This document shows positions 1,396 through 4,499 of a stretch of 42,766 nt of DNA, piece after piece. The DNA is from Candidatus Omnitrophota bacterium. Its GTDB lineage: Bacteria > Omnitrophota > Gorgyraeia > Duberdicusellales > 4484-171. The notes under the pieces are model-generated. The model had not been told where the DNA came from and did no database searches. It saw only the letters and a list, made by a program, of their open reading frames with translations. The position numbers and the translations under genes are program-made. Location: contig QNCE01000003.1 of assembly GCA_003644405.1 (NCBI GenBank), positions 1-42,766 on the forward strand. Reading direction: 5' to 3'. The first letter of the stretch is position 1, and every line of letters begins with the position of its first letter.

Positions 1396-2679
1396 TTAGA
1401 AGGTTATCTTCATTTTTCCAATAACCTGGGAAGCACTATCATCGTTGGAGTCATTAAAAGCATCACCAGGATTAAAATAACCATACATTAGGCTGAACTG
1501 AACATCCTCAGTGTAGTTGTAAGTAAGATGTAAATCTATTTCGTTACCTAAATCTTTCTCCTGATCCATAGTGTAACCACCCCAGGGTTGAGTGACAGAA
1601 TTGGTATCACCAGAAAGAGTGCTTACCTTACCTACCAACCTTAAGTTAGCATAGCGTAAGCTTAAAGAGACATCATCGGTAAGGTCAGCACCTAAATTTA
1701 CGCATATTGCTTGATAGTTAGAATTCTTAAATAGAGCATTTGCAATATCAGCAGGAGTAATTTCCTCATACATCGGGTCCCATTTATCACTTATTCTGAT
1801 GTAATCTAAACCTATGCTCATAGGAACCCAGGTATCAGTGAGTTTGTAAGTTGCACTAGCTAAAATTGCTAAGTCACTGCTGTGTTTATCGGTTCGGGGA
1901 GCAGAAGAAAATCCAACATTAGCGTATCTCTGATACTGATAAGCTATCTCTCCGGTTAAGATTAAATTCTCAACAGGAGAAGAAACCACTCTTACACCTA
2001 TGTTACCAATATCTGCCTTTTTCCTGTCATCGAGGATGTAGTAAAGCTCAGCGCTGGTAGTTTCGTCAACTTCATAGTTAGCATCTAAAATGTAAATATC
2101 TCTATCATCGCTGTCGTACTCATCACCTTCTGAATTCTTAATTAATCCTAAATTAAGAACTAAAGGAGAATAATCTAAAGTTGCCATTATCCCTTCAAAT
2201 GTCTTTGCTCCACAGAGATCAGAAAAAGCGGTTCCTGCAAAATTAGAAGCTCCTTTGTAGTTGGTGTTAGGGTCAGCAACAATCAAGCCACTTCCTATCT
2301 TTACTCCCTGCTTACCAATCTTTAAGGTAAGAGGATAGTCAAGGAAGTTTTTTAATGTGATCCATAACCCTCCTAATAACATATTACCACTTGCGGTAGG
2401 AGTTCCTGAGGCACTAGTTCCTCCACCCCATATTCTCTCATGGAAAAGCACAGTATTTGCTGATACATCTTCAGTTAAATCAGCACTGATAGAGAGTTTA
2501 AGAATAGATGCCAGAGCACTGGCATCATAGTCGGTTCCTCCCCCAAGGTGAAAGTCACTGCGGGAAAGAGCGTACATATCAATTTTCCCGCCCACTTTAA
2601 CATTCTCTACAGCAGCAAAAGCAGTACCTAAAAAAGATACTGCTAAAATTGCTACCAAAACAGTTAATTTCTTACTCAT
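1396..2679 (-). CDS. Outer-membrane beta-barrel porin-like protein
   Basis: 427 aa. A Sec signal peptide with lysines, a hydrophobic core and an AFA cleavage site (cut near residue 22) is followed by alternating hydrophobic strands broken by Gly/Asn/Asp-rich turns, and the chain ends in a phenylalanine (GKMKITF), as in proteins folded by the Bam machinery. It resembles the alginate-export/porin-like barrels abundant in Omnitrophota-type genomes, but the substrate cannot be predicted. The start has a strong Shine-Dalgarno (AAAGGAGGTCG). The gene is monocistronic: its own promoter and an unusually long structured leader lie upstream, and a strong terminator follows. Beta-barrel assignment is confident; the exact family is not. 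Confidence 0.85.
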   Translation of the reverse strand: MSKKLTVLVAILAVSFLGTAFAAVENVKVGGKIDMYALSRSDFHLGGGTDYDASALASILKLSISADLTEDVSANTVLFHERIWGGGTSASGTPTASGNMLLGGLWITLKNFLDYPLTLKIGKQGVKIGSGLIVADPNTNYKGASNFAGTAFSDLCGAKTFEGIMATLDYSPLVLNLGLIKNSEGDEYDSDDRDIYILDANYEVDETTSAELYYILDDRKKADIGNIGVRVVSSPVENLILTGEIAYQYQRYANVGFSSAPRTDKHSSDLAILASATYKLTDTWVPMSIGLDYIRISDKWDPMYEEITPADIANALFKNSNYQAICVNLGADLTDDVSLSLRYANLRLVGKVSTLSGDTNSVTQPWGGYTMDQEKDLGNEIDLHLTYNYTEDVQFSLMYGYFNPGDAFNDSNDDSASQVIGKMKITF

Positions 2680-2717
2680 TATTCGACCTCCTTTCTCAAG
2701 AATTTCTATTTATCTCC

Positions 2718-2741
2718 AACAAGGTTTAAAGAATCCTTGTT
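2718..2741 (-). promoter_or_regulatory. Small hairpin in the porin leader
   Basis: A 7-bp perfect inverted repeat, AACAAGG/CCTTGTT, with a 10-nt loop lies about 40 nt upstream of the porin start codon inside the predicted transcribed leader. It is not followed by a T-tract, so it is not a terminator. It may shape or stabilise the 5' UTR; no known element was recognised. Confidence 0.4.
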
Positions 2742-2759
2742 AATATCTTGCCTATCTAT

Positions 2760-2865
2760 GTTATATCATCCACTTCTCCAACAATCTCTCAGGATTTTTT
2801 TAGGTTACTTTAATAAATTTCACCTCCTTTCCTCCTGGATTGAGATTGTTTGTGGATGGTATAAC
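2760..2865 (-). promoter_or_regulatory. Large leader hairpin with an orphan Shine-Dalgarno in its loop
   Basis: The outer arms 2760-2773 and 2852-2865 are complementary over 14 positions with one C-A mismatch. Inside them, 2780-2788 pairs with 2842-2850 (9 bp) and 2790-2794 with 2833-2837 (5 bp). The loop of about 38 nt carries AGGAAAGGAGGTGAAATT on the minus strand, nearly a perfect complement to the 3' end of 16S rRNA, yet no start codon with a usable frame follows (all frames stop within a few codons). It lies about 80-185 nt upstream of the porin start and downstream of the predicted promoter, so it should be in the mRNA leader. An mRNA-stabilising or ribosome-standby function is inference. 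Confidence 0.6.
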
Positions 2866-2900
2866 CTTTCTGTAAACGTTTTCAAAGAACTCACTATTCT

Positions 2901-2929
2901 TTTTTAGCAAATAATTATTTAGTTGTCAA
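2901..2929 (-). promoter_or_regulatory. Sigma70-like promoter of the porin gene
   Basis: On the minus strand a perfect -35 TTGACA (2929-2924) is followed after exactly 17 bp by TAAAAA (2906-2901), preceded by the TG of an extended -10 motif (TGCTAAAAA). The start site would be near 2894, giving a leader of about 215 nt for the porin. The -10 is imperfect, so the call rests mainly on the -35, the spacing and the extended -10. Confidence 0.55.
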
Positions 2930-3069
2930 GATTTTTTTACCTTTTTCTTCCCATAAATTGTTATCATTATTTTTAAAAACCCTATATATTGTGTCCAAAT
3001 TTAACAACTAAGTTTTTATCCTAATTTTTACTATTTTTCTTATCCTTTTTGTGATATTTTTACTTCTCT
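2930..3069 (-). other. Non-coding spacer between tRNA-Arg and the porin promoter
   Basis: This AT-rich stretch contains no open frame of note on either strand and no hairpin followed by a T-tract. How transcripts passing through the tRNA end is therefore not visible here. Nothing else could be supported in it. Confidence 0.6.
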
Positions 3070-3142
3070 TGCCCCCAGCCCGATTCGAACGGGCCCACCA
3101 GGCTTAGGAGGCCTGTGCTCTATCCTCTTAAGCTATGGGGGC
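3070..3142 (-). tRNA. tRNA-Arg (anticodon CCU)
   Basis: The minus strand folds as a complete cloverleaf: 7-bp acceptor stem GCCCCCA/TGGGGGC with discriminator A, a D arm, anticodon stem CAGGC/GCCTG enclosing CTCCTAA (anticodon CCT, reading AGG), a short variable loop, and a T arm GCCCG-TTCGAAT-CGGGC. The 3' CCA is not encoded. It starts 11 bp after the apt stop codon with no room for a promoter, so it is probably processed from the long upstream transcript. Confidence 0.97.
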
Positions 3143-3153
3143 AAAGATAGTCT

Positions 3154-3666
3154 TCAAAACTTTATTAATGAATAAACAGGATAAGATTTAAGTTTTTTTC
3201 TTCCTTTTAAAGAAAGGAGCTCGATGAGGAAAGCTATACCTACTATTTCTCCTTTCAGTTTCTTTACTAATCTCACGATAGCATGGGATGTGCCTCCGGT
3301 AGCTAAAAGGTCGTCAACTATCAAAACTTTTGCTCCTTTAGGAAAGGCATCACGATGAATACAAAAACTATCTTTTCCATACTCTAACTTGTAGCTTACC
3401 TTATAGCTTTTATAGGGGAGTTTGCCTGGCTTTCTTACAGGAATAAACCCACATCCTAATTTATAAGCCAAAGCCCCTCCTAAGATAAATCCTCTAGCTT
3501 CAGCACAGACGATATAATCTATCTTCTTATCTTTAAATAGGCTAGCTAAACGGTTAATAGTTATTTTAAATGCTCTCTTGTTATTAAGAAGAGTGGTTAT
3601 ATCTCTAAAAAGAATGCCTTTTTTGGGAAAATCAGGAATAGTCCTTATAAGATTCTTTAAATCCAA
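3154..3666 (-). CDS. apt: Adenine phosphoribosyltransferase
   Basis: 170 aa, the usual length for the family. It salvages adenine by transferring ribose 5-phosphate from PRPP to give AMP in the cytoplasm. The PRPP-binding motif VLIVDDLLATGGT lies near residues 114-126; the N-terminal IPDFPKKGILFRDIT and the AEARGF segment are characteristic of Apt rather than other type I phosphoribosyltransferases. It lies 11 bp downstream of the sigma factor gene and 11 bp upstream of the tRNA, so it is the last protein gene of the long co-directional train. Confidence 0.96.
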   Translation of the reverse strand: MDLKNLIRTIPDFPKKGILFRDITTLLNNKRAFKITINRLASLFKDKKIDYIVCAEARGFILGGALAYKLGCGFIPVRKPGKLPYKSYKVSYKLEYGKDSFCIHRDAFPKGAKVLIVDDLLATGGTSHAIVRLVKKLKGEIVGIAFLIELLSLKGRKKLKSYPVYSLIKF

Positions 3667-3677
3667 CTTTACCTCCT

Positions 3678-4499
3678 TTAAAATTCTATCTCTTTTTTCT
3701 GTTCTTGAGCAACATATTTTCTTAACTTCTTTATCGCTCCCTCCTCAATCTGCCTTACTCTTTCCCGGGAAACTCTTAGCTCCTTAGCTACTTCCGCTAA
3801 AGTATGCGGTTTACCATCGCTTATCCCGAACCTTAAATCTAAAACTCTCTTCTCTCTATCACTAATAGCATCTAAAAGATGAACGACCTCTTCATGTAAG
3901 AAGAAACTCTCTATTTCTTTCTCTGTATCAGCATATCCCGTAGCTTTAATAAAATCCCCTAATTGAGAATCCCCCTCTTCTCCTACAGGAGCTTCCAAAG
4001 AAGTTTTTTTCGTCATCAATCTCTCTAGTTGAACTATCTTTTCTACAGAAAGTTTCATTTTTTTAGCTAACTCTGAAGAGGTAGGTTCTCTCTTCAACTT
4101 TTGACGCAACTGCTCCTTTTTTTTCTTATACTTAGAGATTAACTCACTCATATATACGGGTATCCTTATAGTTTTACCTTGGTCAATTAAAGCACGGGTT
4201 ATTGCCTGTCTTATCCACCACGCAGCGTAAGTGGAAAATCGATAGCCTTTTTTTAAACTAAATTTATCAATAGCTTTCATTAACCCAATATTTCCTTCAG
4301 CAATTAAATCCATAAGTGGTAGACCTAAATGGGTATAATGTTTGGCAATATTTACTACTAACTTTAAGTTGGAATTTATCAATTTTCTCCGTGCATGTTT
4401 ATTGCCTTTTTTAGCTTTCCTTATCAGATCCTCTTCCTCTTTCTTAGAGAGTAAAGGGATATCTTTTATCCTCTCTAAGTAAGCTTTAATTGCATCCAT
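3678..4499 (-). CDS. RNA polymerase sigma factor, sigma70 group 1/2 (RpoD/RpoS-like)
   Basis: 273 aa. It begins directly at region 1.2 (AIKAYLERIKDIPLLS), followed by region 2 with the core-binding and -10-recognition segment (GLMKAIDKF..RFSTYAAWWIRQAITRAL, residues about 72-106), region 3, and region 4 with the -35-binding helix-turn-helix (TLAEVAKELRVSRERVRQIEEGAIKKLR, near the C-terminus). Region 1.1 and the large non-conserved insert of enterobacterial RpoD are absent. It could be the housekeeping factor of a lineage with a short RpoD or a group 2 factor of the RpoS type; the sequence alone does not decide. It follows ppdK by 6 bp. Confidence 0.93.
   Translation of the reverse strand: MDAIKAYLERIKDIPLLSKKEEEDLIRKAKKGNKHARRKLINSNLKLVVNIAKHYTHLGLPLMDLIAEGNIGLMKAIDKFSLKKGYRFSTYAAWWIRQAITRALIDQGKTIRIPVYMSELISKYKKKKEQLRQKLKREPTSSELAKKMKLSVEKIVQLERLMTKKTSLEAPVGEEGDSQLGDFIKATGYADTEKEIESFFLHEEVVHLLDAISDREKRVLDLRFGISDGKPHTLAEVAKELRVSRERVRQIEEGAIKKLRKYVAQEQKKEIEF

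Follow-up and report, generated by a model that had tools for sequence, protein, structure and literature searches.

Shine-Dalgarno (SD) sequences that stabilise a message have precedents in STAB-SD (PMC4113751) and in the aprE leader (PMC3997798). In the portion of the literature cited here, STAB-SD of Bacillus thuringiensis cry3A is a strong, non-initiating SD in the 5' UTR that is complementary to 16S rRNA and has a highly expressed gene downstream; it lies near the 5' end of the transcript and blocks RNase J1 (Agaisse and Lereclus 1996; PMC4113751). The Bacillus subtilis aprE leader, as a later paper summarizes it, gains stability from a 5' stem-loop and from ribosome binding without translation (Hambraeus 2002, cited in PMC3997798), and the E. 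coli ompA 5' UTR, described through the same secondary source, is a long structured leader with a 5'-proximal hairpin upstream of an abundant outer-membrane protein (Arnold 1998, cited in PMC3997798). Over a distance, such shielding works far less well in E. coli than in Bacilli (PMC3997798). In the standby site of tisB, 30S subunits land some 100 nt ahead of the start, on a single-stranded region accompanied by a pseudoknot and a sequestered real site (PMC7708055). Lastly, boxA recruits NusB/S10 and blocks Rho termination in rrn operons, and it is necessary and sufficient for formation of the antitermination complex (PMC10250234).

The leader of a porin-like gene in Candidatus Omnitrophota shares features with all of these systems and differs from each. 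Like the cry3A site it carries a strong SD that does not appear to initiate. Unlike that site, as far as the cited account describes it, this SD is carried on the loop that caps a covarying three-part stem, and no RNase J was detected in the genomes searched. The aprE SD is the gene's own, whereas the Omnitrophota SD is separate, startless and about 134 nt upstream, in an unrelated phylum and before an unrelated gene. The ompA leader is unrelated in sequence, and we know of no startless SD in its hairpin loop. To our knowledge the tisB standby site has no strong SD, and known standby sites are single-stranded regions rather than ultra-strong SDs. As in rrn leaders, a boxA (GTTCTTTGAAAA) lies between promoter and long helix, but the porin-leader boxA precedes an mRNA and is mostly confined to one family and order.

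Results

A startless SD in the leader of a porin message

The window (the whole 42,766-nt stretch of Omnitrophota DNA that was analysed) contains a hairpin with a startless SD in the leader of a porin mRNA. The element is real and is larger than the initial annotation, made from this one sequence, could see. All of its parts lie on the minus strand and are given 5' to 3':

2901..2929 (-), sigma70-type promoter TTGACA-17-TAAAAA, predicted from sequence (TTGACA 2929..2924, TAAAAA 2906..2901)
2878..2890 (-), boxA-like GTTCTTTGAAAAC, resembling the boxA of rrn leaders
2852..2865 (-), 5' strand of P1, GTTATA-C-CATCCAC
2842..2850 (-), 5' strand of P2, AACAATCTC; compensatory changes at all 9 pairs in the set of 67 sequences
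2833..2837 (-), 5' strand of P3, CAGGA; GGC in most relatives, with 3 modelled pairs, all compensated
2816..2833 (-), loop with the orphan SD, AGGAAAGGAGGTGAAATT; core AAAGGAGGTGA at 2830..2820
2790..2794 (-), 3' strand of P3, TCCTG; 5 pairs in the window copy
2780..2788 (-), 3' strand of P2, GAGATTGTT; 9 pairs
2760..2773 (-), 3' strand of P1, GTGGATG-A-TATAAC
2754..2759 (-), single-stranded ATAGAT 3' of P1; invariant in alignment A1 and mostly retained in A2
2719..2740 (-), hairpin P4, ACAAGG/CCTTGT; 6 of 6 pairs compensated in the 67-sequence alignment A2
2687..2694 (-), the porin's own SD, AAAGGAGG; mean duplex -12.3 kcal/mol across relatives
1396..2679 (-), porin-like gene, 427 aa; weak match to PF13372, AlgE-like barrel (Pfam E 9.5e-11)

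The three-part stem of the initial annotation (14 bp with one mismatch, 9 bp and 5 bp) could be located pair by pair, with P1 comprising 13 pairs and one C.A mismatch. Folded by itself, the element reaches a minimum free energy of -34.2 kcal/mol; 200 shuffled versions average -17.35 +/- 3.3 (z = -5.11), and not one is as low. P4 takes the form CTAGG/CCTAG in other orders. It was considered as an intrinsic terminator or attenuator and ruled out, because no U-run follows it. Pairing of the loop with other parts of the leader as a pseudoknot was unsupported (the best partner averages only -8.2 kcal/mol), and a candidate third hairpin, P5, just 5' of the porin site is weak (9 of 56 sequences versus 4.4 expected).

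The 427-aa porin, whose ATG is at 2679 (-), has a weak Alginate_exp match, and a profile of its family (A3) matches AlgE (4afk/3rbh) with E of about 1e-3. The porin site reported downstream, GAGAAAGGAGGTCG at a distance of about 140 nt, is as described; the orphan site lies ~143 nt from the ATG, and across relatives this distance is 102-168 nt (median 134).

Upstream of the porin in the window (3069..4499, minus strand) are a sigma factor, an apt-like phosphoribosyltransferase and tRNA-Arg(CCT). A sigma C-terminus and tRNA-Arg(CCT) also seem, from the sequence alone, to lie upstream of the porin in a distant genome, G047 (L168). At another locus (L155; G006:C34:24832-27729), one leader element is followed by two tandem porin copies.

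Conservation of the stem

The annotation had staked the hairpin beforehand on stem pairing in relatives, and this pairing is conserved. Compensatory changes were found in 8 of 9 P2 pairs among 14 near relatives, and in 67 sequences double-sided changes occur at 29 of 31 pairs. The covariation score for the 67 sequences is 0.589, versus 0.238 when shuffled and at most 0.113 with the partner slid. In the same alignment 94.3% of cells pair, versus 75.4% shuffled, although such percentages lean toward the model, since the alignment was fitted to it. The structure that RNAalifold itself derived from this alignment reproduces the four helices almost unchanged, and 26 of its 28 pairs are compensated. 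The stem thus exceeds chance, and its pairing is maintained across the class.

Distribution among Omnitrophota

The element belongs to a structured leader RNA family that spans the phylum, is missing from Rfam and is tied to one porin. When 58 relatives were searched at the DNA level, 29 genomes had matches, many of which are due to chance; 14 sequences, the window's own among them, carry the element with its anchors and the same gene downstream. A DNA pattern scan of named genomes returned 16 records, 15 from Candidatus Omnitrophota and one from an uncultured bacterium. Searching genome contigs with the porin (tblastn) recovered no relative, the protein being too divergent. A first covariance model was built on the 14 sequences that include the window's own; applied to 384 Omnitrophota genomes of the class, it detected the element in 142. 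After retraining on 67 loci, the model had matches in 147 of 384 genomes in the phylum, including two from another class. The element is single-copy in nearly all positive genomes; the exception in the search with the first model was G069, a genome that is 8% contaminated. When the window was compared with the 4227 Rfam families, only a tRNA scored above its gathering threshold. At the element in six relatives Rfam gave nothing even at E up to 5, and such matches lie elsewhere.

We read 89 loci, and at every one whose contig continues the next gene belongs to this one porin family (L018 and L068 end at contig edges, and L102 has a porin with a broken N-terminal frame), and the element was not seen upstream of any other gene. 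In most of these loci the porin starts 15-85 nt after the element. Two genomes of genus g100 (G121 and G166) retain the porin and have lost the element; thus, the element is not essential.

Elsewhere the hairpin itself differs. The model does not recognise the porin leader of G009, a genome of the window's own family, which instead forms a simple and short hairpin displaying GGAGAAGGAGGTGATAA in the loop; in G060 the leader is a diverged version that the model matches weakly. Both leaders have a purine-rich GGAGG behind the promoter: the frame is another one, and the displayed site was retained. Two loci of family f18 (L163 and L166) have leaders unrecognised by the models, with purine-rich GGGGGAGG or GGAGGAG in a long GC-rich sequence; the element may have been replaced there by another version.

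Complementarity to 16S rRNA and depletion of start codons

The window's assembly holds no 16S gene, and the anti-SD was read from the 16S of relatives, whose 3' tail, GGATCACCTCCTTTCT, is the complement of the loop. The orphan site forms a stronger duplex with this tail than the porin's own site does (mean -17.8 versus -12.3 kcal/mol; Wilcoxon p 7e-10) and outpairs it in 59 of 63 cases. Matches to the model have a purine-rich GG-N-GG in the loop; several orders have GGGGGG with G.U pairs and a weaker duplex (-12 to -13 kcal/mol). Counting on model columns, where cells are sequences and not independent events, we found A-to-G changes in 28 of 268 cells at loop positions facing U, which still pair as G.U, and G-to-A changes in only 3 of 268 cells at positions facing C (p = 1e-6 for the contrast).

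Start codons are depleted behind the orphan site. ATG, GTG or TTG occurs 3-13 nt after it in 9 of 66 sequences, versus 26.7 expected, and the frames of the 9 are unrelated. Because substitutions follow the pairing and starts are depleted, we conclude that a strong ribosome-binding site is kept and that starts are avoided. The evidence from sequence strongly supports a ribosome-binding leader, and we infer that 30S subunits bind the loop in the cell.

The site has no ATG, as stated, but a GTG inside it could open VKFIKVT*, a mini-ORF that sits behind a second AGGAGG and is private to this copy, unconserved. This mini-ORF is what a translated leader peptide or a decayed start, also proposed in the initial annotation, has in its favor. 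Since start codons are depleted behind the site and there is no conserved short ORF, the site is not a leader peptide; we rejected this candidate and give it almost no weight.

The loop might instead sense a ligand or ribosomes, as in a riboswitch that controls porin expression. The compact core, its near-invariant unpaired bases (AA after P2, the GG-N-GG loop and ATAGAT) and the single target gene are what one might expect of such an RNA. However, we saw no alternative structure, terminator or sequestered site, no Rfam family matched, and conservation of the loop fits 16S pairing. We therefore consider a riboswitch very unlikely.

A promoter and boxA upstream of the element

The promoter is present as first described, and TTGACA is at the same position in most relatives. 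It predicts a transcription start near 2894 (-) in the window, and in most loci the predicted promoter is 20-40 nt upstream of P1, which would place the hairpin inside the mRNA, as the annotation had it. That reading of the leader recognized the hairpin and overlooked the boxA upstream. A strict G[TC]TCTTT is found in 21 of 66 upstream regions versus 0.9 expected, mostly in the window's own family and order, and a boxA-type GTTCTTTGA lies 40-62 nt upstream of 16S in relatives. By sequence the porin-leader boxA matches that of the relatives' rrn leaders. Most other families that retain the element are missing boxA, and boxA is an add-on, not the core of the element. Its presence suggests that, in the window's own lineage, the porin leader, long and untranslated, has to be protected while it is transcribed.

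One function that would follow is a shield against Rho, in which premature termination in the long untranslated stretch is prevented by boxA, together with NusB/S10, and by a 30S subunit that binds the nascent leader early. The rrn-like boxA between promoter and element, its sufficiency for the antitermination complex of rrn operons (PMC10250234) and the presence of Rho in practically all of the genomes are consistent with this. Rho gave only a weak match in the window's own incomplete assembly, however, and because boxA is missing from most families with the element, Rho shielding is not its general function; we regard it as improbable. It is similarly doubtful that the leader mimics an rRNA leader, with boxA and a long helix displaying a perfect complement of the 16S tail. 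The message would then read the supply of free 30S subunits, or assemble with S10/NusB and 30S during transcription, and porin output would be coupled to ribosome content.

A sequence overlapping the end of boxA, GAAAACGTTTACA at 2882..2870 (-), resembles a LacI-family operator, and AACGTTT-like sites occur in 8 of 66 upstream regions versus 1.2 expected. It is possible that a LacI-type regulator controls porin transcription.

Decay and regulatory proteins

RNase J (TIGR00649) was above cut-off in 0 of 18 genomes, with control genomes positive. RNase Y was found in 17 of the 18, and RNase E/G was above cut-off in 11. RNase E/G was not found in five genomes of the window's own family (G000, G004, G007, G010 and G020) and is present in most other families; a lineage loss, if true, would be of interest for mRNA decay.

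CsrA, a repressor that could recognize a GGA in a hairpin loop, fits the loops of most copies. It exceeded the cut-off in only 3 of the 18 genomes, and the window's genome was not one of them, so that the element occurs where CsrA was not detected; some loops (L097) have no GGA, and conservation spans the full 16S complement. We rejected a CsrA-regulated leader, the least probable of the readings considered.

Discussion

We propose, with a confidence only slightly better than even (about 0.55), that the element is a cis-acting leader RNA that protects and loads the porin mRNA through 30S docking. The stiff P1-P2-P3 stem would lift the purine loop and let AAAGGAGGTGA base-pair with the 16S rRNA 3' tail. 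Because there is no start codon behind the site, a bound 30S subunit could not initiate and would stay docked. The 5' stem and the parked 30S would then shield the roughly 200-nt untranslated leader from entry of RNase Y or E/G, and perhaps also from Rho, and 30S subunits would be held near the real porin site 100-170 nt downstream. Stabilisation of the mRNA as the outcome of docking is hypothetical. Counting against this proposal are the failure to find RNase J, the poorer efficiency in E. coli of protection exerted from afar (PMC3997798), the weaker 16S duplex in several orders and the loss of the element from genomes that keep the porin.

Among known systems the element appears to work most like STAB-SD and aprE. 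It has the complementarity to the 3' end of 16S rRNA that characterizes STAB-SD (duplex mean -17.8 kcal/mol), and the depleted starts and absence of a conserved frame point to the same lack of initiation. We do not claim membership in that class because RNase J was searched for and not found. For the same reason, the textbook account, a 30S roadblock to RNase J1, cannot be transferred whole: a stabiliser here must act against access by RNase Y or RNase E/G, or via Rho, or else the site serves loading or standby. Thus, of the ribosome-binding stabiliser first suggested for this site, the part that holds is a 16S complement kept with starts avoided, and the block to 5' exonucleases is weakened.

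In a purely translational version, 30S binds the orphan site first and reaches the porin site by moving or by being handed over, which raises initiation, and decay is beside the point. The bounded distance from orphan site to ATG (102-168 nt, median 134), the greater strength of the orphan site and the precedent of tisB, with a site about 100 nt upstream of a sequestered start (PMC7708055), all speak for such a standby role. The porin site is not specially sequestered, however (unpaired probability 0.47 versus a leader mean of 0.46), and the porin already owns a good AAAGGAGG. Nor is an ultra-strong SD known to serve as a standby site, the known ones being single-stranded regions. We consider standby alone unlikely, and we favor docking that both protects and loads the message.

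Omnitrophota are described as not yet isolated (PMC10066038). The leader is a structured RNA family on the scale of a phylum, new to Rfam and tied to one gene in these uncultured bacteria. It indicates that a startless SD can be under selection, and be stronger than the real one while start codons are avoided, outside the Firmicutes and where RNase J was not found. The effect on an mRNA of 30S binding without initiation can thereby be tested directly, and Gram-negative laboratory hosts could be given the module as a portable stabiliser or loader of mRNA. In Omnitrophota, the element probably parks ribosomes on the porin message and keeps that message alive.
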